Origin: a virus
IMG/VR virus record: IMGVR_UViG_3300042731_005935
Coordinates: 1-64,000 of that record
DNA: 64,000 nt
Direction: 5' to 3' (one strand)
How positions within the stretch are numbered: position 1 is the stretch's first letter; every line of letters starts with the position of its first letter. The notes beneath the pieces were generated by a model that was given only the letters and a program-made list of their open reading frames with translations, had not been told where the DNA came from and made no database searches. Positions 12,439-47,626 of the stretch are shown piece by piece. The position numbers and the translations under genes are program-made.

Positions 12439-12439
12439 A

Positions 12440-13111
12440 ATGGAAACAAGAATTCAAACAGATGAAACCGAAAGAATAGAAGTTTTATTATTGGATGGTT
12501 CACTTTCGCCACTTACAAGTCTCTCCAATGCTTTTCTTTCTATTCGTCGTGTAAGTGATGGTTATTGGTATGATTTTAATGATGACACTTTTAAAAATTC
12601 CGGCTGGACAACGCGCCAACAAGTTATGACAGAAACAGACTCAACAAATGATCAAGGAGTCTATCATTATGATTTTGATACTTCTGCCATCACTAACGTT
12701 TCTGCTAATGATACTTATGAATTAAGGGTTGATTGCGCTTCGGCAACAAATGTCCCTCAAATAGGAGAGATTAAAGTTGGACAGTTTATAGATTATATAA
12801 ACGGTTCAATTTCTTCAAGAGCTTTAGAAGCAAATGTTGAAGGACATGTAACTACCGCATTAAATACTTATGATCCTCCAACAAGATCCGAAGCTACATC
12901 AGACAAGGAAGAAGTACTTGCAGCAATCAATATTGCACAAAGTGATATTACCTTCTTAAAAGATATTGAAGGCGGAAGGTGGAAAATCGAAGGGGTTCAA
13001 ATGATTTTCTACAAGTCTGATAATTCAACTGAGGTTGCACGGTTTAATTTATTTGATGCTGCCGGAAATCCAACTTCGGCAGTGGAAGTATTTGAAAGAA
13101 GAAGAATATAA
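12440..13111 (+). CDS. Structural protein of unknown family (223 aa)
   Basis: A beta-rich N-terminal domain of about 120 residues is followed by a helix (EEVLAAINIAQSDITFLKDIEGG) and a C-terminal GRWKI...MIFYKSDNSTEVARFNLFD module. That end piece recurs in many phage structural genes, in my recollection. It is probably a neck or tail-associated protein. The ATG at 12440 is two bases after the previous stop. Confidence 0.65.
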   Translation: METRIQTDETERIEVLLLDGSLSPLTSLSNAFLSIRRVSDGYWYDFNDDTFKNSGWTTRQQVMTETDSTNDQGVYHYDFDTSAITNVSANDTYELRVDCASATNVPQIGEIKVGQFIDYINGSISSRALEANVEGHVTTALNTYDPPTRSEATSDKEEVLAAINIAQSDITFLKDIEGGRWKIEGVQMIFYKSDNSTEVARFNLFDAAGNPTSAVEVFERRRI

Positions 13112-16244: not shown

Positions 16245-16475
16245 ATGTCCAGTAAAGACAGGTTAGAAATCAGGAACTGGGTTAAGAATAACCCCGGTGT
16301 CCATCCCAAATTGCGCGAGTTCTTTGAGGTGCTTGACCGCGACTTGAAGGCGAACAATGTTTGGAGCACCACAACCACAACCACTTCAACTACGACCACC
16401 ACAACGTCGTCGACCACAACGTCGTCGAGTACGACCACGACGACCAGTAGTAGCACCACGACGACTACGGAATAG
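16245..16475 (+). CDS. Small virion protein with a pure Ser/Thr tail (76 aa)
   Basis: Residues 1-40 form a charged helical head (ELRNW-like, ending NNVW). Residues 41-75 are only Ser and Thr, and the last residue is Glu. The tail is encoded by ACC, ACA, ACG, ACT, AGT, AGC, TCG and TCA codons in a near-repeat. It is one of four tails of this type in the window. The place right after the capsid gene suggests a decoration or head-surface protein carrying a mucin-like, possibly O-glycosylated, tail; this is inference. Confidence 0.75.
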   Translation: MSSKDRLEIRNWVKNNPGVHPKLREFFEVLDRDLKANNVWSTTTTTTSTTTTTTSSTTTSSSTTTTTSSSTTTTTE

Positions 16476-16505
16476 TTGAAGCAACGGTTCTGGGAGGATA
16501 ACCCA

Positions 16506-16946
16506 ATGGCAAAAACAAAACAAAAAGCCAGCGAACCAAAAGCATGGCGATTTTATCGGTCGAATCTTTCGACTATCGTATGGAACCCGAAATCGGAGCA
16601 ACCATTGGCCGATTTCACCGCTGGGCACTTTACTACCGATGACCCGAAGGTAGCCCGGACATTAAGAGAACTTGGATATCCTGAGATTCCGCTTGATGCT
16701 TCTGAGCCACCTGCAAATGTCATTATTAGTCAACCGACTCAAGCAATTGATGGAGATGTACCAATCGTTAGGTCATTAATGAATCAGGCGATTACTCCAA
16801 CGCCAAGTCAAGAGAAGGCAGTGGAGAAAAACCTGGCCATGAAGACCCATTCAGTTGGCGGGCCTCCTGCATTGAGATCGGAGGAGCAAACACATTCCAG
16901 CGGGATTACAAAGCTACCGCGTAGGCGGAAGAAAAAGACCGCGTAG
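16506..16946 (+). CDS. Hypothetical head-region protein (146 aa)
   Basis: The start at 16506 follows GGGAGGATAACCCA. The N-terminal half has a beta-rich region (AWRFYRSNLSTIVWNPKSEQP) and reads like a small phage protein that follows capsid genes. The C-terminal half is disordered and ends in a basic cluster (PRRRKKKTA). No family is recognised. Confidence 0.65.
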   Translation: MAKTKQKASEPKAWRFYRSNLSTIVWNPKSEQPLADFTAGHFTTDDPKVARTLRELGYPEIPLDASEPPANVIISQPTQAIDGDVPIVRSLMNQAITPTPSQEKAVEKNLAMKTHSVGGPPALRSEEQTHSSGITKLPRRRKKKTA

Positions 16947-16956
16947 GAGATAGGCA

Positions 16957-17394
16957 ATGACGTACTGTGTTGACAGTGACCTTGTCAAATATCGCCCGAA
17001 CATCCTGTCCCTTGGTGTTGCCTCATGGGAAGACCAGCGGGAGGAAGCATATGCGTTGATCAACCGAGTTATTCAGGCTCGGTGGTATCGCAAAGTTGCG
17101 CCGGAGATGGGTTATGATCCGAATGTTACCTTGTTCGATCCGACCCAAATACGCACTGGTACGCTAACCAGGCTTGAGTGTTTCAAAACGCTTGAGCTTG
17201 CTTACATGCTCATGATGAAAGACTCTCCGGAAGCGGATGGCTTCGAAAGGAATATGAAGACTTTTCGTGACCGATACAATGAGGAATTGGAACTTATACT
17301 TGCGGTTGGTATTGATTACGATTGGTCGGATTCGGATTCATTTGATGATGACGAATTATATCTTCGGGCACCGCGGAGACTTGTACGGGGGTAA
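16957..17394 (+). CDS. Head-tail connector (adaptor)
   Basis: A 145-residue helical protein in the standard position after the capsid gene. The pattern of three helices with REEAYALINRVIQARWYRKV and LECFKTLELAYMLMM resembles gp6/gp15-like adaptors that extend the portal ring. The acidic stretch DWSDSDSFDDDE lies near the C-terminus. The call rests on gene order and size rather than on a unique motif. Confidence 0.6.
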   Translation: MTYCVDSDLVKYRPNILSLGVASWEDQREEAYALINRVIQARWYRKVAPEMGYDPNVTLFDPTQIRTGTLTRLECFKTLELAYMLMMKDSPEADGFERNMKTFRDRYNEELELILAVGIDYDWSDSDSFDDDELYLRAPRRLVRG

Positions 17395-17397
17395 ATC

Positions 17398-17871
17398 ATG
17401 GCAAACGCCATAAGCATAGACCTGGTTGGAATTACTCGTATTCAAAGGAAGTTAACACTTCTCCAAAATAGTATTTTCTCCAGGGCTTTGATGACGGAGA
17501 TTGGCCTCTTTGCCATGACCCGTATTAAGTCAAGAACGGTTGAAGGCAAGGATGTGGATGGTACACCATTCAAGCCTTATTCTCCAAAATACGCAATGTT
17601 CCGACAAGAGCATGGTCATCCGACCAATAAAGTCAACCTGACTTTTTCTGGTTCCATGTTATCTTCAATGACGTTTAACCCGGATGCGGATAAAGTAACA
17701 CTTTACTTCTTAAACACTTATGGATTTGGTGCTGGTAACAAAAGTCATACCAGTAATCCTAAAAAAGCATTCTTTTTGAATGAGGAACGGAGATTCTTTG
17801 CATTATCCGGAGAAGACGTTGAAGACATTGTGGATATCGTAGAACGTTATTACAGGAGGTTAATAGCATAA
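17398..17871 (+). CDS. Virion morphogenesis / head-tail completion protein
   Basis: A 157-residue protein with the pattern G-K-D-V-D-G-T-P-F-K-P-Y-S-P-K-Y, then VNLTFSGSMLSSM and a closing RYYRRL helix. This is the signature of the HK97 gp10 / Mu gpG-like morphogenesis group, which joins head and tail. It starts 3 bases after the connector gene and overlaps the next start by one base. Confidence 0.75.
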   Translation: MANAISIDLVGITRIQRKLTLLQNSIFSRALMTEIGLFAMTRIKSRTVEGKDVDGTPFKPYSPKYAMFRQEHGHPTNKVNLTFSGSMLSSMTFNPDADKVTLYFLNTYGFGAGNKSHTSNPKKAFFLNEERRFFALSGEDVEDIVDIVERYYRRLIA

Positions 17872-18320
17872 TGGCCGCCAATTCAATACGCGAACGCTTA
17901 ATTCTTGCTGATAAGGCAATCCTTGATGAATTGTCTTTCATCAAGACGGTGGAGAGGAGACTTCCATCATATAAAGACTTGCAAAATTTCGCACTCACGC
18001 AACTGCCTGTAGCAGCAATTGTCGGACGTATACCGAAACCGACCAACAAGGTGAGTAGTCGAACAGGTCAGGTGGATCAGATCCTTTCGGAACTTCGTGT
18101 GGATATCTATGTTTTTCTCCAAGAAAATGAATCTGCGGACTCGGCAATATCGAGCTACTTGGATGATTTGTGGCCGCAACTTTACGCCGACCCGACACGT
18201 GGTAGACTTTGCATGTTTACTACCCTTGAAGCAACGGAGAATACAGAGACGTGGCCGCCATTCGTAGCATTTCAATTAACTTGTGTTCATAACTACCAAC
18301 ATTCAACCGGAGGAATTTAA
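17871..18320 (+). CDS. Tail terminator-like protein
   Basis: A 149-residue protein in the slot where tail terminators occur, just before the tail tube gene. It has a helical N-terminus, then beta strands (RVDIYVFLQ), a helix (AISSYLDDLWPQLY) and a final strand. The fold order matches gpU/gp17-like terminators. Assignment is by position and length. Confidence 0.6.
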   Translation: MAANSIRERLILADKAILDELSFIKTVERRLPSYKDLQNFALTQLPVAAIVGRIPKPTNKVSSRTGQVDQILSELRVDIYVFLQENESADSAISSYLDDLWPQLYADPTRGRLCMFTTLEATENTETWPPFVAFQLTCVHNYQHSTGGI

Positions 18321-18323
18321 AAG

Positions 18324-18902
18324 ATGACCGAAGCCCACAGTACCTCATTGTATTCACCAGCAGGGCGAGGTATCCTCTATATTGCGGAGTGGAGTGGAAC
18401 TACTCCTCCGACGGATCCCGACGATTACACTGAAGTCGGTAACTGTCCGTCGCTTGAAGCGGAGCCTACTATTGAACGCCGCCCGCATTATTCTAGCCGT
18501 TCTGGTCTCCGTACCCGCGACCTTAACCCGGTCGTGCAAACGGAGTATAATATCACCTTTGAGTGTGACGAAATGTCCGCCAAGAACCTTGCACGGTTTT
18601 TCTTGGGCACTCTAAATGCTTCAACCAAGGTGATCGCTGGTCTTCAGAGCGCGGATAAAGAGTATGCCTTGAAGTTCGTTTCCGACAACCCGATCGGGCC
18701 CAACCAGATTTTTTACTACTGGAGAGTAACACTGGGGCCCAACGGACCGCTGCAACTTATCGGCGATGAATACCTGATAATGTCGTTCACGGGAGAGGGC
18801 TTGAGCGATAGTGCCAATCATGCTTCCAGCCCGTATTTTGATATTAAATATGTGACGACAACTACCACAACTACCACAACTACCACAACTACCACAGAGT
18901 AA
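18324..18902 (+). CDS. Major tail tube protein with a poly-Thr tail
   Basis: The 177-residue body is beta-rich with the layout of a tail tube protein: RGILYIAEW at the start, RPHYSSRSGLRTRD near residue 55 and a strand-rich end. Residues 178-191 are fourteen threonines and the last residue is Glu. The tail is encoded largely by four copies of a nine-base ACTACCACA unit. On the mature tail it should be displayed many times. Position between the terminator and the tail chaperone supports the call. Confidence 0.8.
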   Translation: MTEAHSTSLYSPAGRGILYIAEWSGTTPPTDPDDYTEVGNCPSLEAEPTIERRPHYSSRSGLRTRDLNPVVQTEYNITFECDEMSAKNLARFFLGTLNASTKVIAGLQSADKEYALKFVSDNPIGPNQIFYYWRVTLGPNGPLQLIGDEYLIMSFTGEGLSDSANHASSPYFDIKYVTTTTTTTTTTTTTTE

Positions 18903-18929
18903 TTGTGTGGTATAGCAAAGGAAACGCCA

Positions 18930-19376
18930 ATGCCGAGGAAAAGAGAAGTCGTGAAAATCGACGACAAGGAGTATACCATTAAAGAACTAACCGTCGGGGA
19001 GATTATCAATATCACCCAAGGGTCGGTGTTTTTTAGTGGTCCGCTGAAAGGTAACGGTGTTGGAGACAAAGATAAGTCCAAAAAAGGAGATGAAGCAAAA
19101 GGAAAGAAATCCGAAAACCTGACTGATGAAATCACTGATATTATGTCTGATTTCAAAAGATTAATGAAGACCTGTTGTGATTTCGGTCCGGAAGACTTGG
19201 TTAAGTTGACTCCTTCTCAAATTCGCGAAATTTACGATGGTTTCAAAAAAGTGAATTCGGATTTTTTATCTTCGTTAAAAGCACTGGGGGTGGCGGAAGC
19301 CCTGGTAAATATCAGGGACGTAGCTCTCAATCGCTTTTCAAAAATGCTTGTCACCTTGTTGAATCAGGACATGTAA
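18930..19376 (+). CDS. Tail assembly chaperone, short (G-like) product
   Basis: A 148-residue protein between tail tube and tape measure genes, where the G/GT-type chaperones sit. The N-terminal half is beta-rich (EVVKIDDKEYTIKELTVGEI), then a charged disordered loop, then helices. The ATG at 18930 follows AAAGGAAACGCC. A -1 shift near the end would extend it (see 19340-19528). The chaperones coat the tape measure during assembly and are absent from the virion in model phages. Confidence 0.75.
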   Translation: MPRKREVVKIDDKEYTIKELTVGEIINITQGSVFFSGPLKGNGVGDKDKSKKGDEAKGKKSENLTDEITDIMSDFKRLMKTCCDFGPEDLVKLTPSQIREIYDGFKKVNSDFLSSLKALGVAEALVNIRDVALNRFSKMLVTLLNQDM

Positions 19377-19528
19377 ATGTCTTCCAATACGGCTTTTCAT
19401 TTTTTCTCCAAGCGTTGAATGAGCATCAAATTATTTCCAACATTCAACGAAAAAACATGGCTATTGCCATGCGGGTTGCCCGATGGGCGTCTGATAGAGA
19501 ATGGAAGAAATTCATGAAAAGGAAGTAA
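19340..19528 (+). CDS. -1 frame extension of the tail chaperone (GT-like)
   Basis: No start codon precedes this open frame, but it continues the chaperone in the -1 frame. The frame stays open from before the stop at 19376 to TAA at 19526-19528, reading ESGHVNVFQYGFSFFLQAL and on to a basic end. A possible slip site is A-AAA-ATG at 19340-19346, where the Lys codon can re-pair one base back. The G-rich run near 19290 is a second candidate. The extension ends two bases before the tape measure start, whose ribosome site lies inside it. Programmed frameshifting in this gene pair is common in long-tailed phages. Confidence 0.65.
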   Translation, partial: KNACHLVESGHVNVFQYGFSFFLQALNEHQIISNIQRKNMAIAMRVARWASDREWKKFMKRK

Positions 19529-19529
19529 A

Positions 19530-22500
19530 ATGACCGAACGACTGGATATAATAGTCCGGATTAGAGATGCCGCCCAAGCTGGAGTGCGGTCGGTTAAAAA
19601 GGGTCTTGCAGGAATCGGAAGTACTGCTTCAGCAACAACTGGAGCAATCCGTGGAATGTATGGACAACTTGCAGCCGTCACCGCACTCTTTGCCGGTGGA
19701 GCATTTCTTGGCAGCGCCGTCAAAACTTTTACCCAGTTTGATGATGTAATGAGGCAAGCTGGTGCTGTAACAAATGCCACCAAGGGAGAAATGGAGGCGA
19801 TGACGGAGCAGGCAAAAGAAATGGGTAAGACAACTCGTTTTACTGCTTCCGATGCTGCCAATGGTTTGCGTTTGCTCGGTATGGCGGGGTTTGAAGCCAG
19901 TGAATCTACCGCAGCACTTCCTGGAGTACTTAATCTCGCTGCCGCTGGTAGTATTGATCTTGGAACTGCGGCAGATATTGCAACGAATGTCTTGGCTGGC
20001 TTTGGTTTAGAAGTGGAGAATTTAGGTCAGGTTAATGATGTTCTGGTTCAAACTTTTACTTCTTCAAACACTACCATCACCGAACTTGGCGAAGCGTTTA
20101 AACTTGTTGGCCCAATTGCAAAAGGTGTTGGATCAAATTTTGAAGACTTATTCGCCGCGATTGGAAAGTTAGGTGATGCAGGTCTGAAAGGAACACTTGC
20201 CGGTACAGCATTAAGAGGAGCAATCAACGCCCTATTGAATCCAACCAAAGAAGAAGAGAAATTAATGGAAGGATTGCAAAAACGTCTTGGCGGAGTTGCT
20301 CTAAAAGTCAAAGATGCCGAAGGAAATTTTATTGGCTTTACTTCGATTATCAAGCAATTGGAGGATGCTGGCTTAAAAGGAGATGAAGCCCTCAAGCTTT
20401 TTGGATTGAGGGCTGGGCCAGGTATGGCAGCATTATTAAACCAGGGCTCGGAAGCACTTGCAGAACTTGAACGTAAAATAAATAATGCTGGTGGAGTAAG
20501 TGAAGAAATTGCTGATAAGATGGAGTCAGGAATCGGTGGTGCGGCACGTGAGGCGGCCGCAGCATTTGAGGCGGTAAAGATTGCTATCGGAGAAGCATTT
20601 TCGGAAGATATTATTAAGGCAATTAGAGGGTTCCGCGATCGGATGCTTGAGGTTATTGATATTATCAAGCAATTAAAAAAAGAAGGAACCCTTAAAGCAT
20701 ATGTTGACGCGGTGTCCGCAACATTAAATTTTCTTGGCAGGAGAATTGAAGAAATTACAACCGGATTTAAGGAACTTACCAAGGTTATAGTTGCGGGAAT
20801 TGCTGCAATAAATGGAGATTTAGGAATAGCAAAGGAGGCATTAAAAGATATTGGGTCTGATTTCGATAGACTTCTTGTTAAGAGGGGTTTACTTGAATCA
20901 CAAACCAAGAGAGAGTCAATGGCAATAAAGGAGCAAATTAATGCCATTCAAAATCAAATTGTTATCTCTGAAAAGAAAATAGAGCAGGATAAAGAGGATC
21001 TGAACGGTTGGAGGGCCAAAATTGCAGGTTCCAAAGTTTATCAGAAACAACTTGAAAAACACCAAAGGCAGTTACAATCATTATATGATGAGCTTGACAA
21101 ACTTAATAAGAAGAAAACACAAATTGATGTTAAATTAAATATTGAACAAATAAAAGAGGAAGGGGAGTATATTGATTATTGGGCAAGAAGTGTTGGTAAA
21201 AAATTAGAAGAAGAGTCAAAGCCAAGCGGTCCGATTGGAACCGGCGGGAAGAAAGTTGCAGAGACAATTGCGGAGTCAATTGTTCCTGATTCTCCAACAA
21301 TGGAAGCATTAATGAAAGCCGGTCTCACCAAACTCACTGCTACACTTCAGACAGAAGCAGCAAAGATTGAAGGCCAGTATGACCAGAATTTGATTTCTCT
21401 TGATGAATATTTCAATCAAAGGCGAACATTGATTGAGAGGAGAATTCAACAGGAACTCGCTCTCCTTAGAGCCCAGGCGGAATCGGAGACTGATACCGAC
21501 AAACGTGCCTTAATTAATGCTCAGATATTCGCCAAAGAGCAACAACTCCAAACAGCCTTACTCCAGTTGGAGAATGAACGCTATGAGGAACAAGATCGAT
21601 TAAAACAAGATCAACTCCGAAAAGAGGATCAACTCAATAACCTCCGGTTAAAAGCAGAGAAGGCATTTCAGGATCAAAAGGCTCGGGTTGCTGGTGGTCC
21701 TTCGTTTGGTCTTGAAGCTACATTCTTGGAAGAACAAGCAAAACTCCAGCAGCGTCAGAATGCGGAACTTGCAGCAATCCAAGAATTTTATTCCCAAAAA
21801 CTCCAATTACTCCGGGAGAATAAAGCTGCCGAAGCTGAAATCGAAGCAGCTTTTCAGGAACAGAAGGCTTCAATTGAAGAACAACACAGGTTACAACAGA
21901 AGGAGAAGATTAGATTAACGCAAGACCAGGAACAACGCCTGGCCGAATATAGACTCAACAATATTGCTCAGACAGCGCAAGGAGTCTCCCAAATCTTCAC
22001 CCAATTGTATCAGTTAACTGGGAAGAAACAGAAAGAATTCTTTTACATTGCCAAAGCGGCAGCAATCGCAGAGGCAACCATAAATGTAGCACAAGGTGTT
22101 ACTAAAGCTTTAGCGCAGGGTGGCTTCTTTGGAATTATTACGGGTACTCTTGTCGCAGCCGCAGGCGCAATTCAGATTGCTACAATTGCAAATCAGAGCC
22201 TTGCTGAGGGTGGCCTTGTTGCTGGTAAATCTCCAACGAAATCTTCGGATGATAAATTGATTAATGCAACATCTGGAGAATTTATGCAGCCGGTTGATGC
22301 AGTGAATTATTATGGTCTCGGTGTTATGGAAGCAATGCGCCGAAAATCAATTCCTAAAGGAATCTTTGATGGATTTTCTATGCCTGGGGTTCGATACGGA
22401 ACGAGCCACTTTGCAGAGGGTGGAGCAGTTAAAGCACAAAACAGTGGTATTGGAGATACCAAGAATGATACGAAAAAAGGACAACAAACAAATATTGTAA

Positions 22501-22625
22501 ACGTACTTGATCCGGCTGTGTTTGAGCAGTGGTCAAGCAGTACTCCCGGCCAGCGCAATATTTTGAATGTATTGTCTCAAAATATCTTCGAAGTCAGGCA
22601 GATGGTTTTTGATAACCAAAGTTAA
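19530..22625 (+). CDS. Tail tape measure protein
   Basis: The longest plus-strand gene, 1031 residues. The first 400 residues have the TP901-type layout (FDDVMRQAGAVTNATKGEMEAM, then repeated glycine/alanine-rich segments). The middle is a long Lys/Glu/Gln coiled coil (residues about 460-830). Near residue 860 a hydrophobic patch (IAKAAAIAEATINVAQGVTKAL and following) precedes a glycine-rich end. The length sets the tail length in model phages; at about 1.5 angstrom per residue this would be near 150 nm, an estimate by rule of thumb. Confidence 0.9.
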   Translation: MTERLDIIVRIRDAAQAGVRSVKKGLAGIGSTASATTGAIRGMYGQLAAVTALFAGGAFLGSAVKTFTQFDDVMRQAGAVTNATKGEMEAMTEQAKEMGKTTRFTASDAANGLRLLGMAGFEASESTAALPGVLNLAAAGSIDLGTAADIATNVLAGFGLEVENLGQVNDVLVQTFTSSNTTITELGEAFKLVGPIAKGVGSNFEDLFAAIGKLGDAGLKGTLAGTALRGAINALLNPTKEEEKLMEGLQKRLGGVALKVKDAEGNFIGFTSIIKQLEDAGLKGDEALKLFGLRAGPGMAALLNQGSEALAELERKINNAGGVSEEIADKMESGIGGAAREAAAAFEAVKIAIGEAFSEDIIKAIRGFRDRMLEVIDIIKQLKKEGTLKAYVDAVSATLNFLGRRIEEITTGFKELTKVIVAGIAAINGDLGIAKEALKDIGSDFDRLLVKRGLLESQTKRESMAIKEQINAIQNQIVISEKKIEQDKEDLNGWRAKIAGSKVYQKQLEKHQRQLQSLYDELDKLNKKKTQIDVKLNIEQIKEEGEYIDYWARSVGKKLEEESKPSGPIGTGGKKVAETIAESIVPDSPTMEALMKAGLTKLTATLQTEAAKIEGQYDQNLISLDEYFNQRRTLIERRIQQELALLRAQAESETDTDKRALINAQIFAKEQQLQTALLQLENERYEEQDRLKQDQLRKEDQLNNLRLKAEKAFQDQKARVAGGPSFGLEATFLEEQAKLQQRQNAELAAIQEFYSQKLQLLRENKAAEAEIEAAFQEQKASIEEQHRLQQKEKIRLTQDQEQRLAEYRLNNIAQTAQGVSQIFTQLYQLTGKKQKEFFYIAKAAAIAEATINVAQGVTKALAQGGFFGIITGTLVAAAGAIQIATIANQSLAEGGLVAGKSPTKSSDDKLINATSGEFMQPVDAVNYYGLGVMEAMRRKSIPKGIFDGFSMPGVRYGTSHFAEGGAVKAQNSGIGDTKNDTKKGQQTNIVNVLDPAVFEQWSSSTPGQRNILNVLSQNIFEVRQMVFDNQS

Positions 22626-22635
22626 GGAGTAAATT

Positions 22636-23949
22636 ATGCCTTTAAATGGAGCAATTCAGACAGGAACAGTCACCAGTTTCTCCGGTGCAAACGGACTTTT
22701 GCAGGCTTTGTTGGATTTTGTGGCTGGAACAAAAGTAACAGGAGCAACAACGACTGGTTCTGGCTCAGGACCATACACGGCAACCTTGACCACTACTGTT
22801 GGTTTAGGATCTGTTATCATCAATTATACAGTTGGCGGGATAGATTTCGAGGCACAAGATGATGGTGCGAACGGCTTAAATGATGCAACAGATGGATATA
22901 TCTCTTCAGGATCGATTGATTATGGAACCGGAGCGTTTACAGTAACTTTTACCACAACACCAGATGCAAATCCAACAATTGATTATGTACACGGAGATGA
23001 TGGTCAGGACTGGGAAATTAAATATCAACGTAATACGAGAGATAGCGATAAGTTAACACCAGAGGAGCCATTCGGAAGTGATTGTGAGGAGGTTATTCTA
23101 CACAACCGTGGACTATCTGGTGCTGAGAATGTTCTGATTGGTATCCGTGAATGGAAGTATGTTGCTGGCGCTGCATATGGTTGGGATCTTACTGGCTATC
23201 AGGCATACACGGATGGGATGTATTGGGGAAAGACAATCATTGATGATTTGTCTCTTGATTATGATTCATTATGGGATCATTTTGATGATACTCCAATCCT
23301 CCCGCTCATTGATGATACAATGTACTACTGGTTTTATAGTAACCGTCAGCGCATAGTTGTTATAGTAAAAGTACAGAGCAATTATGAATGTTGTTACATG
23401 GGTTTCGCAAACCGCTTCGGGAATCCAGAAGATTATCCATATCCGCTTGTTATTAAGGGTTGTGGATATGGTAATATCAACAACACAAGTACTTCACAAA
23501 GTAACCATTCATATATACCGTATGGACCATCTAATGGAACAGAAATGCTCCATAATGTTCTTCCTAACAATGCTTGGAGTATAAACTGGGGAACAGGATC
23601 GACCTACTTTGCAACATGGCTGTTCCCAACGGCGAATTGGGCAGATACAGGACAGATGTACGAGGCTCCGGCTAAGAAGGAAGTAATGATGACTCCTGTT
23701 ATTGGTATGAATGCGCTAATAAATGCTGGACTTTGGGAACTGGATGGAGTATATCATGTTTCCGGTATCGGTGTCCAATCCGAAGACTACATTCGGGCGC
23801 ATGATGGAATAAAGTACCGGGCTTTTCAGGATATTGCCAGAATAGAATACGACGATTGGATGGGTGTGGCAGAAATAGAATTTACTACCACAAGCACTTC
23901 TACAACCACAACAACTACTACATCAAGTACCACAACAACTACAGTATAG
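22636..23949 (+). CDS. Tail protein with a C-terminal Thr/Ser tail (437 aa)
   Basis: A Gly/Thr/Asp-rich N-terminal beta domain of about 130 residues, then a larger beta-rich domain with many aromatic residues. Residues 417-436 are all Thr or Ser, and Val ends the protein. It follows the tape measure gene, so it belongs to the distal tail. The last 34 bases, including the stop and ribosome site, match the end of the tail-tip gene exactly. I do not recognise the fold. The next gene looks distantly similar in composition and layout. Confidence 0.7.
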   Translation: MPLNGAIQTGTVTSFSGANGLLQALLDFVAGTKVTGATTTGSGSGPYTATLTTTVGLGSVIINYTVGGIDFEAQDDGANGLNDATDGYISSGSIDYGTGAFTVTFTTTPDANPTIDYVHGDDGQDWEIKYQRNTRDSDKLTPEEPFGSDCEEVILHNRGLSGAENVLIGIREWKYVAGAAYGWDLTGYQAYTDGMYWGKTIIDDLSLDYDSLWDHFDDTPILPLIDDTMYYWFYSNRQRIVVIVKVQSNYECCYMGFANRFGNPEDYPYPLVIKGCGYGNINNTSTSQSNHSYIPYGPSNGTEMLHNVLPNNAWSINWGTGSTYFATWLFPTANWADTGQMYEAPAKKEVMMTPVIGMNALINAGLWELDGVYHVSGIGVQSEDYIRAHDGIKYRAFQDIARIEYDDWMGVAEIEFTTTSTSTTTTTTTSSTTTTTV

Positions 23950-23953
23950 GAGA
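23920..23953 (+). repeat. 34-bp exact repeat, copy 1 (end of Thr/Ser tail)
   Basis: The sequence from ACATCAAG to the GGAGA of the ribosome site is identical to 30508-30541. It covers the final codons of the tail, the TAG stop and the Shine-Dalgarno of the next gene. Confidence 0.85.
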
Positions 23954-23961
23954 AGCGAGTC

Positions 23962-24903
23962 ATGCCGTATGTACTTTCAGAATCAATACACTATAATCCG
24001 ACTGATACAAAAGAAGCTATTGACTACATACGCCAGTTTGCCTTATCCGTTGGGTGGACCGTAGATACATGGGTTACCGGAGAGCCGACGCAATTACAAT
24101 TGTGGTCTCCTGGTTATGTTGCACAAGAACTTTGCTACCGAATCCAGGTAGTGGATGTTGATGCTCAGGAGCAAACATTATCATTGAAGGGGGTTGTGCC
24201 CGGGTATCGTTCAACAAGTTTTTCAGTTACAGACTCAGTATCTACCTGGGGTGGTAACAGTACATCATATTACAACACCTCTCTTACAGCCTCTTTTTTT
24301 GATGCGTTATATTTGTATGGTAATAAGCATTTTATTTGCGCTATTTTCCATGTAGATCCGATTGCTGTGATTACTCTTCAGATTGGTTCATGGGATCTTT
24401 ATCCAAGTTGGTGGTATTATAGCCCTGGTATAAACTTTGTATACAACCCACAGGATAATTGGGGGTCTTCCTCTACATATAAATGGTATAATATGACAAG
24501 TAATCCGACTCGTTGGGCACCACCAATGTCCCAGAGATGGTCTATTTCGTTAGGGTCCAATGTGTGGTATGAAGGAGCAAAGAGAGGATCATCAGATTAT
24601 GCTTGTAACTACAGGCCAGCAGCCGATATTTCTCTTGGTTTAGAAGCAGGAGAATTTAATCGAGCGAAAGGAATCTTAACCTATAATAGTTATACAGCAA
24701 AGAGGATGGCTTTTCAATCATCCTTCTTTGTTAGAAACCCATCACTTGGTATTTGGTACCCAGTTGGTGTTAGTCCATTTGCATGGATAAATGGTAGGAA
24801 CCTGACTATTGGAGAAGTAGTTAAGTTTGGAGCAGATGAATACAGATGCTTCCCAGGGGTATTCAGTACTTATGAACACTGGCAAGCGTATAGGATTGCA
24901 TAA
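23962..24903 (+). CDS. Tail protein, beta-rich (313 aa)
   Basis: A protein rich in Trp, Tyr and Ser without a known motif. Its layout, with a mid-protein stretch ICAIFHVDPIAVITLQIGS, a WYY-rich loop and a final EYRCFPGVFS strand, parallels the 22636 gene and suggests a remote paralog. It shares a base with the next start. It probably belongs to the distal tail complex. Confidence 0.65.
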   Translation: MPYVLSESIHYNPTDTKEAIDYIRQFALSVGWTVDTWVTGEPTQLQLWSPGYVAQELCYRIQVVDVDAQEQTLSLKGVVPGYRSTSFSVTDSVSTWGGNSTSYYNTSLTASFFDALYLYGNKHFICAIFHVDPIAVITLQIGSWDLYPSWWYYSPGINFVYNPQDNWGSSSTYKWYNMTSNPTRWAPPMSQRWSISLGSNVWYEGAKRGSSDYACNYRPAADISLGLEAGEFNRAKGILTYNSYTAKRMAFQSSFFVRNPSLGIWYPVGVSPFAWINGRNLTIGEVVKFGADEYRCFPGVFSTYEHWQAYRIA

Positions 24904-26003
24904 TGGCAAATGATGGAGCTATAAACTCAATAATCAATGGGATTGAACGCACTATTGTTCGGAAGAATTATGAGCAGCAGTATGCTGATAGAACACCTGT
25001 GCTTCAAAATCCAATTGTTAATAAGATCTGTGCCGTGTATACAACAATAGGAGAATCTGAGAAGAGAAGACAAACTCCTGTCATAACACCAGCTCAGGAC
25101 AATCATGCTGGGCTATTTTCTACAGACCCTGGCGGAGGCTTTTTCTTTGAGAGGGTTTGGGTAGAACCCTTGCTTTTTGCTTTACAATTTATTACAGAAG
25201 ATAACGAATATGAAATCAAGATCTGGAACGCATACCGTTCAAAGAATGTTCAAACCACTTCTGTTATCGTTCTAAATCAGGAAGGTACTAATTTAACATA
25301 TCCTACACTTCCTGATACAATTAATATTTTTGGTGATACAATTTACACACTTGACGTCTATGGAGATGGACCACCGCTACAGGACACTTCTTATACCCTT
25401 ACTATTGACGGTGAGGAATATGTAATTGAAATAACTGGCATTCGGATCATTCCATTTGATCTTGATCCGAATTGGGATGAAAATTTGCAATTTACATATG
25501 ATTTTGCTACAACCATCTGGTCAAATGATAGATTCACGGAACAACGGAGACCTTTGAGCCGAGAAAGTTGGTTTACAATGGTTGCATCTTTTGACGCTTC
25601 TGGTGCCCGTAATCGGAAGGTGATGAATCTTCTTGGATATGGAAAAGATAAAGTATTTGGTATTCCAGTCTTTACAGAGAAGATGACGCCAGTGTCAGCG
25701 GCGGCTGAATCTTCAACTATAATAGTAAATGAAGATTTTACATACTTCTACAATTTAAAGAGTCGGGCTGGATATATTATCATTGTTGATCATAATGTAG
25801 GGCAAGCGGAGATTAAAGTGATATCGAGCCTAACAGGAACAAACCAGATTGACCTAACCCAGCCGATCTCCGCAACATTTGATTTGAAGTATACATATAT
25901 ATATCCATGCATGTTTGTTATCATTAATTCATTTTCAGGCAATAATATTACGGATGATTTTGATAATGTGAAGATAAACTTTAAGGAGTTTAAAAGTGGT
26001 TGA
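24903..26003 (+). CDS. Tail protein (366 aa)
   Basis: A beta-rich protein with acidic patches and a helical first part (NSIINGIERTIVRKNYEQQY). Regularly spaced Ile/Val/Tyr strands suggest two or three small beta domains. It overlaps the next gene by eight bases. I recognise no family; its place before DUF2163-like and NlpC/P60 genes puts it at the distal tail. Confidence 0.65.
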   Translation: MANDGAINSIINGIERTIVRKNYEQQYADRTPVLQNPIVNKICAVYTTIGESEKRRQTPVITPAQDNHAGLFSTDPGGGFFFERVWVEPLLFALQFITEDNEYEIKIWNAYRSKNVQTTSVIVLNQEGTNLTYPTLPDTINIFGDTIYTLDVYGDGPPLQDTSYTLTIDGEEYVIEITGIRIIPFDLDPNWDENLQFTYDFATTIWSNDRFTEQRRPLSRESWFTMVASFDASGARNRKVMNLLGYGKDKVFGIPVFTEKMTPVSAAAESSTIIVNEDFTYFYNLKSRAGYIIIVDHNVGQAEIKVISSLTGTNQIDLTQPISATFDLKYTYIYPCMFVIINSFSGNNITDDFDNVKINFKEFKSG

Positions 26004-26634
26004 TAGTCTTCTTGACATCGGTGGTGAACCTGAATTCCCACTATCCATTGATTGGAGTAGCCAGCCTAGTTATAATTTTCAAATCAGCAGGTACCTATTC
26101 GAAGGGCGCGGAACAGCATCTAAGATTGAGGAGAAAAACCCGGAGACACCAATTAGCTTTGAAGCAAAGTTTTATGTTGGGGACCGTGAGACTGAATATG
26201 CTTTTCTGGACTTTATTCATACAACTGTTGGAAGAACAAACCGCTTTTGGCTTAGATATCCAAAACAGTCGTTTATCCCAACGGAAGGACTTTCAAACGG
26301 TTCTATGATTTTAAAGGTTGAACCAAATAATTTTGATCTATTTCACGTTGGACATGAACGGATATATATCCAAACAATTTATGGGGATACAATAACAAGG
26401 CATGTTAGTAATGCGACTTATGATGCAACATTTGATGAAATAAGTCTCCAGTTGCTAACTGCAATTGATAGAGATATCTCCTTGGATGAATTCTTAATAA
26501 TTGGGAGATACTTGCTTGTAAGGTTTGATCACGATGACTTTAACATAAATGTTTTAACTGAGGATAAATTTGACTTCTCATTAAAGTTTATTGAATTAAT
26601 AAGAGATTATTCGGATCTTGCGGCTAATCCATAG
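25996..26634 (+). CDS. Tail protein (212 aa), GTG start
   Basis: The GTG at 25996 follows AAGGAG by seven bases and lies inside the end of the previous gene. The protein has alternating strands and FLDFIHTTVGRTNRFWLRYP in the middle. Similar-size genes precede the BR0599-type gene in lambda-like tail tips, where they belong to the hub. The call is by position. Confidence 0.6.
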   Translation: MVDSLLDIGGEPEFPLSIDWSSQPSYNFQISRYLFEGRGTASKIEEKNPETPISFEAKFYVGDRETEYAFLDFIHTTVGRTNRFWLRYPKQSFIPTEGLSNGSMILKVEPNNFDLFHVGHERIYIQTIYGDTITRHVSNATYDATFDEISLQLLTAIDRDISLDEFLIIGRYLLVRFDHDDFNINVLTEDKFDFSLKFIELIRDYSDLAANP

Positions 26635-26643
26635 GAGTAGAAA

Positions 26644-27453
26644 ATGGCAGAGTATGAAGAAAATTTAGAAGCTGTACAACAATCTCCAGTACCTGAGTTT
26701 TTTCTATTCAATGCGTCAGGAACCGTTGAAAGATATACATCATACTCCTCTTCTCTTACGTTCCTTGGACAGTATTGGGCGGCTGCATCTATAACCCGTG
26801 GTGGTATTAAGCAAGATTTAAACTTTGGTGTGACAACACTTAACATTACTACTCCGATCACGCCAAATATTGCAAAGTACATCCCGAATCAGCCGGTTGA
26901 ACCGGTAGATGTGACAATCTACCGTAGCCATATTGATTACCTTGACCAGTATGATATTTTTTTCAGAGGTAAGGTTAAATATGTTCAGTTGAAAGGGAAA
27001 CTGGCATCGGCTCAATGTGAGGCAAAGAATAAGTATATGGCAACGAAGATTCCAAATATTATCTACCAGTCAAATTGTAACCATGATATATATGATGATG
27101 GATGCGGAGTTGACGAATTTGCATACCGTCGAACTGCGAACGTATCAAATATTGTTGGTAGTAAATTGTATTTCTCCTTCACAGATGGTGGTAGCCCTGT
27201 CTCCACCGGATACTTCACAGGTGGAAAAGTTAAATATGGCAATGATCTCCGGTTCATAACCTATGCAACTAATACATATCTTGATCTCCATATTCCGTTT
27301 GATAGTAAAGTTGCAATTGGTACAGAAGTTTATATATATCCTGGTTGTGATGGCAATCCTGCCACATGCGTTGGAAGATATAACAATTTGAATAACTTCT
27401 TGGGAATGCCATATATTCCTGAGACAAACCCGGTAATCTGGGGGTTTAAATAA
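26644..27453 (+). CDS. Tail hub protein, BR0599/DUF2163-like
   Basis: The 269-residue protein ends with YPGCDGNPATCVGRYNNLNNFLGMPYIPET split over its last 40 residues. This Gly-Cys-Asp...Cys...Asn-Asn-x-x-Asn-Phe-x-Gly pattern is the hallmark of BR0599-type tail proteins that pair with an NlpC/P60 gene and a tip gene. Further cysteines near residue 145 (NCNHDIYDDGCG) fit the family, which may bind a metal cluster. The next two genes complete the expected trio. Confidence 0.8.
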   Translation: MAEYEENLEAVQQSPVPEFFLFNASGTVERYTSYSSSLTFLGQYWAAASITRGGIKQDLNFGVTTLNITTPITPNIAKYIPNQPVEPVDVTIYRSHIDYLDQYDIFFRGKVKYVQLKGKLASAQCEAKNKYMATKIPNIIYQSNCNHDIYDDGCGVDEFAYRRTANVSNIVGSKLYFSFTDGGSPVSTGYFTGGKVKYGNDLRFITYATNTYLDLHIPFDSKVAIGTEVYIYPGCDGNPATCVGRYNNLNNFLGMPYIPETNPVIWGFK

Positions 27454-27968
27454 TGTGGACGCCTTATTTTAATGATGATGCCATCTGGAAGAAGTATAGG
27501 GATGAAGTATTGTCCTGGGAAGGTACGCCGTATAAGCATTTGAAAATGGTAAAGGGAAGGGGAGCCGATTGTACAATGTTTATTGGGGCTCAATGGTTGT
27601 ATATGGGTATCCTTAAGCAGGTGGAGTATGACTACTATCCGAAGGACTGGTACATCCATAAACCAACAGAGTTCGTCATTCAACAATTACACTACCATTG
27701 GCAGAATTACTCAGCACCGGGTTTTGACATTTTGAAGATAGACACCCGTTATGAGAAAGACTTCATAAGAGGAGATGTGCTTTGTTTTGCTCTATCTACA
27801 ACCGGAGTGACGAACCATGCAACAATTTGGTTTGGGTATTTTGATGAGACGAGGCAGCGCCGGCAAATGTATAATTCAATAAATGGTCATGGAGTCTGCA
27901 GAATGACATATGGTAGTTTTTGGAGAGATAAACTGACAACTATTTTCAGGGTGATGAGGGACGTATAA
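27453..27968 (+). CDS. NlpC/P60-like tail peptidase
   Basis: A 171-residue cell-wall peptidase candidate of the lambda K type. The catalytic cysteine is in GADCTMFIGA near residue 48, preceded by the usual EGTPYKH motif. The catalytic histidine is in VTNHATIWFG near residue 125. It should help the tail cross the peptidoglycan layer. It shares one base with its upstream neighbour and is followed at once by the tip gene. Confidence 0.8.
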   Translation: MWTPYFNDDAIWKKYRDEVLSWEGTPYKHLKMVKGRGADCTMFIGAQWLYMGILKQVEYDYYPKDWYIHKPTEFVIQQLHYHWQNYSAPGFDILKIDTRYEKDFIRGDVLCFALSTTGVTNHATIWFGYFDETRQRRQMYNSINGHGVCRMTYGSFWRDKLTTIFRVMRDV

Positions 27969-27969
27969 G

Positions 27970-30537
27970 ATGGTAACTGGACTAATTATAGCAATTGTCG
28001 TTCTTGTTGCTGGTTTGTATATGGCATCTATGAATAGGCCTGATACGGAGCAACAAGATATGTCTCCAAACACCCTGGAGTCATTTAAAGCAACAACAAA
28101 TCAGGAAGGTGCTGTTGTTCCTCTTGTCTTTGGACAGGCAAGAATATCCGCTAATCTTTTGTGGTATGGAAATCTTGAGACCGAAGAAGTAACAGAAGAG
28201 GTTGAAACAGGTGGTAAGGGTGGTGGCGGCGGAAATAAAGAAGATGTTACTGTTGGATATAGATATTACATGGACATATGGGAAGCGCTCTGCATTGGTC
28301 CTGGTGTATCAGTACTTGGGACTTTTGTTAATGACAAGTTTGCCGGTGGAGCACTTGGAACCCTTAATCCAGGTGATACAACTTATTATCCGACGGAACC
28401 TGGTAGTTATGCGGCGCCTTTAAACCCGGTCGCACATGTTTTCATGAAACGCCAATATCTTGGTGAAAATGTAGCATCAGTGCCAACCTATCATTGGATA
28501 GTAAAAAGGCTTAGTGATGCGCCTTTAACACATGCTAACCTATCAAACGGAGTTAATCCAGCCGCAGCTATCTATGATATGTTACGGATGTCTGGTGCCG
28601 AACCTTCTGCATTTGTTCTATCTACCTTTCAAGATGCGGCTACTTATTGGTATACCAAAGGATATGGAATTAACATTACTCTCTCCAGGCAGGAGGAGAC
28701 AAGAAATGGAATTAAAAGGATCTTTACTTATGTTGATGGCAATCTTCGGGTGGATAATCAAGACCGCTTTGAACTAATTGCATGGAAAGATACAGATACA
28801 TATCAGTATACAATTGATCAAAACGATATCAAGGAATTTAACTTCAGGCGACGGAGTTGGTATGATGTATATACAGACTTCAGGGCAAACTTTATAGATA
28901 GTACACGTTCATATACTCAGCGAACAATCAGAGTGCGCAACACAGCCGTTCGGGATATAACTGGACAAGATCGCCAACTAACGGTAGATTTGACAGCATT
29001 CATTGACGTAAATACAGCAAGTAAACGCCTTTGGGAGATTATGAAGCAAATGTCTTATCCAGAAGCGGAAGTGTCAATGAAGGTAAGTTGGAAATATATT
29101 GGTGTTCGGGTTGGTGATGTTGTTCGTGTAAGCTATAATGATTATGGGATATCAGATCTTGATTTCCGCATTATTGGTATAGATATATCCAAAGCTGATT
29201 CCAATGAAATAACATGGACTTGTAAGCAACTTTTAAGCACTCTCTTTGATGCAAATTTTGAATTAGGAGGAGATCCACAATGGGTTGCTCCAAGTTATTC
29301 TCCACAGGTTCCATATGCGGCGCAAGTATTTGAATTACCCTACAATGAATTCACCGGACGTTCTCCTGCTTATTTACTACTCTGTGCCAGAAAAGGAGCG
29401 GAGACTGGCTTCAAGTGTATGTTATCTATAACCGGAACGGATTATGTAAGTAAAGGAACCTTCGGAACATTCACCCAACATGGTACACTGGATGAGACTT
29501 ATCCAGCAACAACGTATACAATTGATGATGAAATAGGCGTTCTATATACTCCAGATAGGGAAGATCCGCTATTTGATGATCTTGATAGAGCAGACCTTTT
29601 TTCAACAATGCGCTTTGTGATTATAGATGATGAAATTATGGCTTTCCAGAATGTTGATTATGAGGGTGGTGCTGGAGCTATAAGACTGACTGGAATTATT
29701 CGTGGAATCCTGAATACTACTATTGCCCAGCATAACTCCGGCGCTCATATCTGGATCACTGCTCTTCGGAATAATATCTTGAAAAACGTTACATCAACAA
29801 ATTTTTATATTAAGATGTTGCCATATTTTGGAACAGAAGTGGTTGACGCCTCTTCGGTTAGTCCAATATCTGTAACCTATGAAGAGAAGGCTGTGACACC
29901 TTGGACTCCATGGAATGGTGTTGCAACTCGCTCTGGCTCAGATATCTCCGTTGTCTTGAATAATACTACACAAGAGATCCTTGGAGCTGGAATGAGGGCC
30001 GCTGAGAATCAAACGCTTGAGGAGGTTCATCAGATAGAAGGCTTCATTCAATATGGTATTAACTCCCAGGCAGCACAATACGAATCGGTAACAGCGGAGT
30101 TTTCTTATGTCCAGGCTGGTTCACATTATCTTTATATGCGGCAATACCTTGAAGGAAGATATACCAACTGGGTAAGTATCTATGTTGGTGCGGCAGATGG
30201 TGATTACTATGTAGCTGCGAATCAGCTTACAAATACAGGTTTGGAGAAGGTTCAATGGGGGTCCCAGGGATTTATCGAAGTAATAAACAGAAATCTTTCA
30301 AGACTTAATGATGAATTACTTCTCGTATCGGGACTCCTTGATGTAGACCTTTCTGGCCTTGCAGATACAAATGCGTTGACGTGGAATGAATCAGCGCAAA
30401 AGTTTGAACCACTTGATTTTGAGGTTGCATTTTCAACTACCACGACAACAACCACCACCACAACCACTACAACCACAACCAGCTCAAGTTCCACAACCAC
30501 AACAACCACATCAAGTACCACAACAACTACAGTATAG
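27970..30537 (+). CDS. Tail tip (J-like) protein with a Thr/Ser tail
   Basis: An 855-residue tip protein. It starts with a hydrophobic stretch (LIIAIVVLVAGLYM, residues 5-18), usual for this family, and continues with a VVPLVFGQARI motif and a Gly/Lys loop near residue 80. The middle is made of beta-rich hub domains. Around residues 750-820 is a module (LNDELLLVSGLLDVDLSGLAD) shared with the two following small genes. Residues 822-854 are only Ser and Thr, and Val ends the chain. It may form the host-binding tip. Confidence 0.85.
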   Translation: MVTGLIIAIVVLVAGLYMASMNRPDTEQQDMSPNTLESFKATTNQEGAVVPLVFGQARISANLLWYGNLETEEVTEEVETGGKGGGGGNKEDVTVGYRYYMDIWEALCIGPGVSVLGTFVNDKFAGGALGTLNPGDTTYYPTEPGSYAAPLNPVAHVFMKRQYLGENVASVPTYHWIVKRLSDAPLTHANLSNGVNPAAAIYDMLRMSGAEPSAFVLSTFQDAATYWYTKGYGINITLSRQEETRNGIKRIFTYVDGNLRVDNQDRFELIAWKDTDTYQYTIDQNDIKEFNFRRRSWYDVYTDFRANFIDSTRSYTQRTIRVRNTAVRDITGQDRQLTVDLTAFIDVNTASKRLWEIMKQMSYPEAEVSMKVSWKYIGVRVGDVVRVSYNDYGISDLDFRIIGIDISKADSNEITWTCKQLLSTLFDANFELGGDPQWVAPSYSPQVPYAAQVFELPYNEFTGRSPAYLLLCARKGAETGFKCMLSITGTDYVSKGTFGTFTQHGTLDETYPATTYTIDDEIGVLYTPDREDPLFDDLDRADLFSTMRFVIIDDEIMAFQNVDYEGGAGAIRLTGIIRGILNTTIAQHNSGAHIWITALRNNILKNVTSTNFYIKMLPYFGTEVVDASSVSPISVTYEEKAVTPWTPWNGVATRSGSDISVVLNNTTQEILGAGMRAAENQTLEEVHQIEGFIQYGINSQAAQYESVTAEFSYVQAGSHYLYMRQYLEGRYTNWVSIYVGAADGDYYVAANQLTNTGLEKVQWGSQGFIEVINRNLSRLNDELLLVSGLLDVDLSGLADTNALTWNESAQKFEPLDFEVAFSTTTTTTTTTTTTTTTSSSSTTTTTTSSTTTTTV

Positions 30538-30578: not shown

Positions 30579-30788
30579 ATGACAGTACTATCTCCAAGCG
30601 GACTTGAAACATTTGACTACGGGACACCCGGATGGAACCACATTTACAATCGTAATATGGATCTTCTTGAGAATCAGCTATTGAAACTGGCTGCTTTGCA
30701 GGATGTAGATGTAACAGGCTTAACCGATGAAGATGTTTTAATCTGGAGTACTTCTGCAAATAAATGGATTAGGACGGAGAGGTATTAA
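30579..30788 (+). CDS. Small tail-tip module protein 1 (69 aa)
   Basis: The whole protein is one copy of the module seen near the end of the tail-tip protein: GWNHIYNRNMDLLENQLLKL, then LQDVDVTGLTDEDVLIW and a final KW pair. It probably folds as a helix plus a small beta unit that attaches to the tip or fibre. It starts 41 bases after the tip gene. Confidence 0.7.
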   Translation: MTVLSPSGLETFDYGTPGWNHIYNRNMDLLENQLLKLAALQDVDVTGLTDEDVLIWSTSANKWIRTERY

Positions 30789-30789
30789 T

Positions 30790-31002
30790 ATGTCTATAAA
30801 CTTGAACCCATCAGGACTTGACCAGAGTGAGGTTGGTGATAGTAATTGGGTAAATACGCAGAATTCGAATATTACTTATCTCAACAGCACCTTGCTTAAA
30901 TTAAATTCACTCGGAGATGTTAATGTTTCGTCTCAACAGGATTTTGATGGATTGCAATGGGGTGAAGGTGCTGGTGAATGGGTGAATGTACCAACTATAT
31001 AA
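30790..31002 (+). CDS. Small tail-tip module protein 2 (70 aa)
   Basis: A second free-standing copy of the module: NWVNTQNSNITYLNSTLLKL, then LGDVNVSSQQDFDGLQW. It starts one base after module protein 1, so the two are translated together. The L-x-D-V-x-V spacing resembles short segments common in phage fibre proteins. Confidence 0.7.
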   Translation: MSINLNPSGLDQSEVGDSNWVNTQNSNITYLNSTLLKLNSLGDVNVSSQQDFDGLQWGEGAGEWVNVPTI

Positions 31003-32835: not shown

Positions 32836-34326
32836 ATGAAAAAGAAAGATAAAAGAACCATTGGCATTTTCACGAATTTTCAAGAGTTTAATCCTGGTTA
32901 TAGCCTAACCGGCATTGTTGTTGATCAATCATTAATGCTCCTGGAAAACGGACATGATGTTCATGTGTTCGTCAATGAAACCTTCAATTCGAAATACAAT
33001 CAGGACGCAAGAATCTCCTACCTAATGAATAAATTCAGAGGGAAATTTCATTTACATAAAGCGACCAAGTTTATGCATTTGATTGATTATGAAACAAAAT
33101 CCACCCTTACGGAAGACCACAAAAAAGCCCTAATCGATGCTGCAAAGATCTTTACAGATAGCATTTTAAAATTTGACATTGATCGGATTTATACCCACGA
33201 TTTTATTTTTACTGGATGGAATCTTCCGTATGCTCTTGCAATAAAAGAAGCAAGCAGACTTCTATCCATAGCTGGCAAACAAGTTTATTGGCTCCATTGG
33301 ATCCATAGTGTGCCAGGATCCCATCGGAGAGATTGGTGGGATATTAATCAGTATGGGGATAATCATCTGATTGTATTTCCAAATAATATTGAAATTAATC
33401 GGATATGTGAAACATTTATGACAAATCCGTCAAGGGTCCGTATGATTCCACACATTAAAGATATCCGTACATGGTACGATTTTTCTGATGAATCGTGGGA
33501 ATTCACAAAACGGTATCCTCAGATAATGGAAGCAAATGTGGTCCAAGTTTATCCTATCTCAACCGACCGCATGTCAGCAAAGCAATTACAATTGGTGATC
33601 AAAATATTTGGTTATATGAAACAAGCCAAAGTTCCTGTTTTCCTGTGTGCTGCAAATCAATGGGCTACCGGTCGCCGGCGCAAGGAAGATGTTAATAAAT
33701 ACATCCTTCTTGCGGAACATTGTGGTCTTGAATATGGTAAGGAATTTGTCTTTACTTCTGAATATTCATATGATCCAGTACTTAATGATATTATCGAAAG
33801 CTCGGAGAATTTCGAGGAATTAGATCAAAGATTACCGAAATGCGAATCTTCCGGAGATGAAAAAGATGATACATATGGGCAATTCCTAAAAGGTATTAAA
33901 TGGGATGGTGATTTTGCGGAAGAAAAAGTCCGACTTCTGCAACTCTCCCAACCATATGCTACAGGTATCAGCCGCCGGATGCTTCGCGAACTTCAACTCC
34001 TATCTAATTTATTTATTTTTCCAACCCGTGAGGAGAGTTTTGGATTGGTTGGGCCAGAGGCAGCATTTTCAGGTGCCTTATGTATTATTAATCGAAGCTT
34101 AATTATGCAGTTTGAGGTTATGGGTTCAAATGCTCCGGCGTTTGACTTTGGTTCACACTATAATAATACTCCAAGTATTAATGATGAAAAATATATCCGT
34201 GGAGTCTCCTTTGCGATTCTAAATCGGATTTATTCTAATGAGGCGATCACGACCAAAATCCATTGTCGCCGGCGATACAACATGAACTCGATTTATAACC
34301 GGTATTATGTTCCCAATGCAATATAA
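32836..34326 (+). CDS. Glycosyltransferase, GT-B fold (496 aa)
   Basis: First gene of the sugar cassette. The N-terminal domain begins with a strand (TIGIFTNFQEFNPGYSLTG) followed by a helix with D-Q-S-L-M-L-L, as in GT4 enzymes. The C-terminal domain has FIFPTREESFGLVGPEAAFSGALCI, the E-x7-E region that binds the nucleotide sugar. An extra 60-residue insertion near residue 320 is acidic. The substrate cannot be told. The start has a GAGGAGTAGAAA site. Confidence 0.75.
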   Translation: MKKKDKRTIGIFTNFQEFNPGYSLTGIVVDQSLMLLENGHDVHVFVNETFNSKYNQDARISYLMNKFRGKFHLHKATKFMHLIDYETKSTLTEDHKKALIDAAKIFTDSILKFDIDRIYTHDFIFTGWNLPYALAIKEASRLLSIAGKQVYWLHWIHSVPGSHRRDWWDINQYGDNHLIVFPNNIEINRICETFMTNPSRVRMIPHIKDIRTWYDFSDESWEFTKRYPQIMEANVVQVYPISTDRMSAKQLQLVIKIFGYMKQAKVPVFLCAANQWATGRRRKEDVNKYILLAEHCGLEYGKEFVFTSEYSYDPVLNDIIESSENFEELDQRLPKCESSGDEKDDTYGQFLKGIKWDGDFAEEKVRLLQLSQPYATGISRRMLRELQLLSNLFIFPTREESFGLVGPEAAFSGALCIINRSLIMQFEVMGSNAPAFDFGSHYNNTPSINDEKYIRGVSFAILNRIYSNEAITTKIHCRRRYNMNSIYNRYYVPNAI

Positions 34327-34335
34327 GTGGGCGCC

Positions 34336-35494: not shown

Positions 35495-35495
35495 A

Positions 35496-37820: not shown

Positions 37821-37821
37821 A

Positions 37822-45182: not shown

Positions 45183-45386
45183 TTAAAATCCTTCCACATC
45201 AATTCCAAGGTCTAATGCTTTTTGAATTATGTTTAGGTAGCATTGGGTAAGTAGCCTAGATTTATATGACCTGTCTTCTATCTTGTGGGCCCTTATTTGA
45301 CCAAATCTTGACATGTTAAGCCTTATCGCCATGCATAAATCCGTATACTCCAGTAAGTTAAGTTTATCAAATACTATCGGTTTCAA
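45183..45386 (-). CDS. Small hypothetical protein (67 aa), TTG start
   Basis: The TTG at 45386 lies seven bases after AAGGAG, inside the end of the SbcD gene; a TTG at 45392 is too close to the site. The protein is helical and basic. No family is recognised. Confidence 0.55.
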   Translation of the reverse strand: MKPIVFDKLNLLEYTDLCMAIRLNMSRFGQIRAHKIEDRSYKSRLLTQCYLNIIQKALDLGIDVEGF

Positions 45387-46305: not shown

Positions 46306-46318
46306 TTTTACTCCTAAT

Positions 46319-47625: not shown

Positions 47626-47626
47626 A

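Follow-up and report, generated by a model that had tools for sequence, protein, structure and literature searches.

Four proteins encoded in a stretch of 64,000 nucleotides (referred to as the window) end in tails consisting of threonine and serine, and these tails are probably acceptor tags for O-glycosylation on the outside of the virion. The window comes from a virus record of 83,163 bp, which was used as its surroundings, and its virus group comprises uncultured long-tailed bacterial viruses. Selection for hydroxyl residues, the outward-facing proteins that carry the tails and a positional link to glycosyltransferases, above all to the family of the gene at 32836-34326 (GT32836), make glycosylation the best-supported reading.

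The 83,163-bp record was scanned in all six frames for Ser/Thr runs of at least 8 residues; exactly four were returned, all of them C-termini of + strand late genes. The initial annotation had reported tails of 35, 14, 20 and 33 Ser/Thr residues at the ends of four genes, and both the lengths and the places were reproduced; its assignment of these genes to the head or tail agrees with the tail-tube, J-like and phrog_687 families and with the capsid-adjacent position. The genes and their tails are as follows.

16245-16475, + strand: small capsid-adjacent protein with a body of about 40 aa and homologues at the same place; 35-aa Thr/Ser tail at 16365-16469, then Glu and stop
18324-18902, + strand: major tail (tail-tube) protein (phrog_807, 2e-29; PDB 6xgr match); tail of 14 Thr at 18855-18896, then Glu and stop
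22636-23949, + strand: tail-module 'structural protein' (phrog_687); 20-aa Thr/Ser tail at 23884-23943, then Val and stop
27970-30537, + strand: tail-tip/J-like protein (phrog_1101, PF13550); 33-aa Thr/Ser tail at 30433-30531, then Val and stop

No real family match was obtained for the protein at 16245-16475. Its gene immediately follows that of the SU10-type capsid, a position at which it is conserved, and nine of the ten homologues of this small protein carry a Thr/Ser tail. The homologues of the protein at 22636 were tailed in 13 of 15 cases, plus one with a short tail. When ORFs of at least 100 aa were counted, 131 of 3,710 were Thr/Ser-tailed in the loci of this lineage, compared with 1 of 2,022 in random viral loci. 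A motif of the type LxxLxDVDVxGLxDxxxLxWxxxxxKW was common to two short proteins (30579-31002) and the C-terminus of the tail-tip protein (end of the 27970-30537 body), and proteins with a motif of this type bear Thr/Ser tails in some relatives.

Nearly all of the roughly 80 distinct tail-tube homologues are tailed at the same position of the core; among distinct tail-tube C-termini, 65 of 85 were tailed and 9 more had short tails. An alignment of 17 tube proteins, in which the relatives share 53-97% identity with that of the window, has five Thr directly after the last core residue in 17/17. Tails are retained in proteins with as little as about 50% identity; that of the tube homologues varies in length between about 5 and 29 residues, and its final residue is free. 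In 80 distinct tail-tube proteins, the post-core stretch, delimited by position and not by purity, contained 702 Thr, 153 Ser and 30 other residues, 12 of which were Glu. All 21 of the 21 non-Thr residues in the window tails are Ser, a residue expected from about 19% of the one-step missense changes at these Thr codons (P ~6e-16, with the sites treated as independent). The conserved feature is a hydroxyl-bearing tail of flexible length. Judged from these alignments, the shared core position in nearly all tube homologues and the replacement of Thr almost only by Ser argue that the tails arose neither by chance nor by DNA slippage. The tube ends of L061 and L062 are Ser/Glu-rich, and Ser/Glu-rich repeats (SSSSSSSSESS) occur in a 1372-aa protein (G012:39829-43947, L425-L426); both are possibly a serine version of the same theme.

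To survey which proteins carry tails, all the loci fetched were mapped for homologues of each gene of the window. No tail was called on the homologues of terminase, portal, scaffold, capsid, neck, tape-measure and neighbouring genes (about 400 C-termini, with a few partial calls) or on glycosyltransferase homologues, while one homologue of the gene at 24903 (L252) had a Thr/Ser tail. Tails were also present on some fibre-type proteins of relatives, including SPRY and Laminin_G (LamG) fibre proteins of G003 and G017 that have both Thr/Ser tails and Thr/Ser linkers, and in G015 a tail was found on a head decoration protein of the lambda gpD type (PF02924, 4.4e-19). The tube core matched YSD1_22 (PDB 6xgr, 4.5e-26) up to about residue 279 of 381. 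In YSD1, the C-terminal Ig-like domain of the tail tube juts loosely into the exterior (PMC8718954), and the tail of the window tube starts where this domain starts. Taken together, the junction at the tube exterior, the tails on gpD-type and SPRY/LamG proteins and their absence from the approximately 400 other C-termini suggest that the tails mark proteins expected on the outer virion surface. The predicted acceptor would accordingly be placed on an exposed virion protein, both at the tube junction and on the gpD-type protein of the relative.

The window protein at 12419-13111 is tailless and ends in ...EVFERRRI, and the homologous ends NVYERVRV (G003) and NVYERRRAG (G017) run on into Thr/Ser tails (L402:8016-10769 and L413:795-2336). 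In these homologues, gain or loss of the tag thus appears to occur at one set position.

Six glycosyltransferases, two methyltransferases and an acetyltransferase had been claimed for the window, and this inventory was largely borne out, with weak assignments at 34327, at 37780 and for the methyltransferase at 37194. The genes concerned are as follows.

10659-11918, + strand: GT4 glycosyltransferase, strong match (PF00534, 1.2e-27), inside the head gene block
32836-34326, + strand: glycosyltransferase of GT-B fold, the family linked to Thr/Ser-tailed genes (GT32836)
34327-35010, + strand: rhamnosyltransferase-like protein, weak (TIGR01556, 8.5e-6, below cut-off)
34964-35494, + strand: hexapeptide acyl/acetyltransferase (PF00132, 6.1e-12)
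35496-36068, + strand: methyltransferase (PF13578, 6.7e-10)
35978-37207, + strand: GT4-like glycosyltransferase (PF13692, 2.5e-5, just below cut-off)
37194-37820, + strand: methyltransferase, weak (PF13489, 8e-4)
37780-38592, + strand: conserved cassette protein without a family, possibly GT-A-like (LEEDW-type motif in alignment; structure model of low confidence, mean pLDDT 52)
38592-39632, + strand: GT2 glycosyltransferase (PF00535, 3.3e-9), with homologues in relatives
39592-40041, + strand: conserved small cassette protein, no family assigned

Members of the GT32836 family match PF00534, and their alignment keeps an EX7E-type motif. The AlphaFold model of the 32836 protein (pLDDT 87) matched GT4 enzymes of the PDB, among them BshA and MshA, with low whole-chain TM-scores (0.29-0.35), so its assignment as a glycosyltransferase rests on the E-values together with the Pfam matches and motif of the family; the acceptor specificity is not readable from the fold. 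The cassette at 32836-40041 closes a co-directional late block on its 3' side, outside the replication genes. On the - strand, at 45367-49958, the window has a replication/recombination block consisting of a metallophosphatase, a RecF/SMC-like ATPase, a 5'-3' exonuclease and a RecA-like protein. The cassette order is conserved in G001 (50-68%), mostly in G015 (34-51%) and in part in G003 and G006. The tailed relative G017 is without this cassette but has a module homologous to that at 10659.

Among records of at least 30 kb, GT2 or GT4 matches were present in 18/27 lineage records and 9/25 random records (p=0.026, a value that ignores relatedness). The 9 lineage records without a glycosyltransferase end within 20 kb of the tail-tube gene; in records that extend at least 22 kb beyond that gene, a glycosyltransferase was found on the same strand in 16/16 (where a record had been retrieved through its capsid gene, the tube gene was taken to lie 3.1 kb past the latter). 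Unrelated contigs with the poly-Thr/Ser pattern were not enriched in generic glycosyltransferases (19/44 vs 9/25 random, p=0.37), and unrelated tailed contigs often had no detectable one. The reverse test, in which 63 distinct loci were sampled by the GT32836 family, found a same-strand Thr/Ser-tailed gene in 25/63, compared with 0/120 random loci, and in about ten of the 63 the tailed gene was 24-120 bases from the glycosyltransferase gene. A further 15/63 had an internal Thr/Ser tract and 1/63 only an opposite-strand tail; in 22/63 both strands of the fetched flanks were free of tails and tracts. No tails were found at the loci of another phage GT4 (0/12), a weak control of few and closely related loci. 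In several lineages, tailed genes and GT32836 genes are direct neighbours on one strand. G028 and G029, relatives with tailless tail-tube proteins, still carry GT32836 homologues. In L018, L170 and L211, a GT32836-family gene has directly upstream of it an array of two or three genes for small fibre-type proteins whose tails are long TSTSTS stretches; nothing else in these contigs matched the window proteins that were tested.

The co-occurrence of poly-Thr/Ser tails with glycosyltransferases, which the initial annotation had put forward as a check, gave a mixed picture: it was seen within the lineage and from the side of GT32836, but not for generic glycosyltransferases in unrelated contigs, and two tailless relatives have the enzyme family as well. 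The tails are accordingly linked to a single enzyme family and lineage, not to glycosyltransferases at large. The dense O-glycan proposed for the tails is likewise favoured by the hydroxyl selection, the outward-facing proteins and the GT32836 linkage, and disfavoured by the lack of generic enrichment.

According to the proposed mechanism, cytosolic phage enzymes would put sugars on the Thr/Ser hydroxyls of the disordered C-terminal tails during late expression. The enzyme set would comprise the GT-B enzyme of the 32836 family and the other GT2/GT4 enzymes, with two methyltransferases and the acetyltransferase decorating the sugars, and the acceptors would be the tails on the capsid-adjacent protein, tail tube, tail structural protein and tail tip. 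Assembly would then display the glycosylated tails outwards as a mucin-like brush, and the benefit may be shielding, solubility or weak surface binding. The tails, the Thr/Ser selection, the restriction to certain proteins, the tube position and the glycosyltransferase link were computed; we infer the sugar attachment, the chain-starting enzyme and the benefit. A broader proposal, for and against which we see even chances, is that in a widespread uncultured phage lineage the portable poly-Thr/Ser tag, the GT-B family and the methyl/acetyl cassette make up a general mucin-like coat on head, tube, tip and fibres. If the reading is true, a recognisable acceptor tag and a linked enzyme family would make virion glycosylation predictable from sequence in uncultured viruses, and a small genetically encoded acceptor with its enzymes would become available for experiments on the role of a phage's sugar coat.

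Other explanations of the tails differ widely in their probability. Functionless codon repeats grown by slippage would account for the tail of the tail-tube gene, which is a perfect 9-bp tandem array of 4.3 copies. This array is an exception: the Thr codons of the four tails (ACA 29, ACC 26, ACT 15, ACG 11) occur in proportions near those in the protein bodies and the tail Ser comes from both TCN and AGY, so most tails are no simple DNA repeat. A DNA-level artefact was rejected on this codon mix and on the substitution pattern, and is also opposed by the confinement of tails to certain genes and their conservation to about 50% identity; we regard it as highly improbable. Linkers to the next gene product through stop-codon readthrough are still harder to credit. 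Although for three of the four tailed genes the following ORF continues in the same frame beyond one stop (16475/16476, 18902/18903 and 23949/23962), an in-frame open stretch of at least 60 codons after the stop was found in only 7.5% of 80 tail-tube relatives, and readthrough was rejected as the arrangement is not conserved.

Tails that act unmodified, as disordered hydrophilic brushes or spacers, with the cassette modifying, say, phage DNA or the host surface, deserve more weight, since Thr/Ser tracts also serve as interdomain linkers of fibre proteins, GT32836 persists in the relatives without a tube tail and unrelated tailed contigs often lack detectable glycosyltransferases. However, Gly, Ala, Asn or Pro should be acceptable in a plain spacer, yet Thr is replaced almost only by Ser, and the same-strand adjacency of tailed genes and GT32836 genes in several lineages would be left aside; nor does a cassette that ends the late block, away from the replication genes, suit another target. 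We consider this explanation unlikely, and less likely again a docking tag in which a shared partner (host receptor, glycan or other virion protein) binds poly-Thr/Ser directly. The presence of one tag on several unrelated proteins of a particle would suit docking, as would the position of the tube tail at the site of Ig-like domains, which are proposed to bind cell-surface carbohydrates in other phages, yet a length that varies from about 5 to 29 residues and the lack of any fixed motif speak against it, and the glycosyltransferase linkage is left unexplained. Glycosylation of the tails remains the preferred reading.

Among the matches listed from isolate phage records, the tube and J-like proteins shared less than 35% identity and the capsid less than 40%, save for one 46-residue piece, and none of 50,697 isolate phage records matched GT32836. 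The only close tube match in GTDB genomes was on a Deltaproteobacteria MAG contig (L044, 54% identity, with a Thr tail); Deltaproteobacteria were considered as the host, and this single contig is too little to name one.

Dense Ser/Thr tracts characterize mucin-like domains and glycosylated serine-rich repeat adhesins, the latter with linked glycosyltransferases. The window tails have such a tract, but are short C-terminal tags made cytosolically, and gave weak low-complexity Pfam matches only. Siphophage tubes with C-terminal Ig-like domains (YSD1/Chi, T5, lambda and SPP1) resemble the window tube in having a homologous core followed by an extra, outward element; unlike in these tubes, no folded Ig-like domain was found after the window core, and only the Thr/Ser tail follows. 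In the open literature that was searched, virion glycosylation is proven for just a few phages, and nothing fitting was found there on poly-Thr phage tails. In mycobacteriophages, phage enzymes glycosylate capsid and tail-tube proteins, with the glycans at the C-termini, according to passages of PMC12363180 and PMC12619734 (citing Freeman et al. 2023). The phages concerned, Che8, Corndog and Myrna, resemble the window in their phage glycosyltransferases and in the place of the modification, proven there and predicted here, at C-termini of capsid and tail-tube proteins. Phage-encoded glycosyltransferases are present in the window, as indicated by Pfam matches and the GT-B model. In contrast, the capsid and tube C-termini of Che8, for which glycosylation is proven, are without a poly-Thr/Ser tail, whereas the window lineage, compared with all three phages, has a long tag on several proteins per particle. 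What differs from the mycobacteriophage precedent is the portable poly-Thr/Ser tag on several proteins, together with an enzyme family that has no isolate-phage match.
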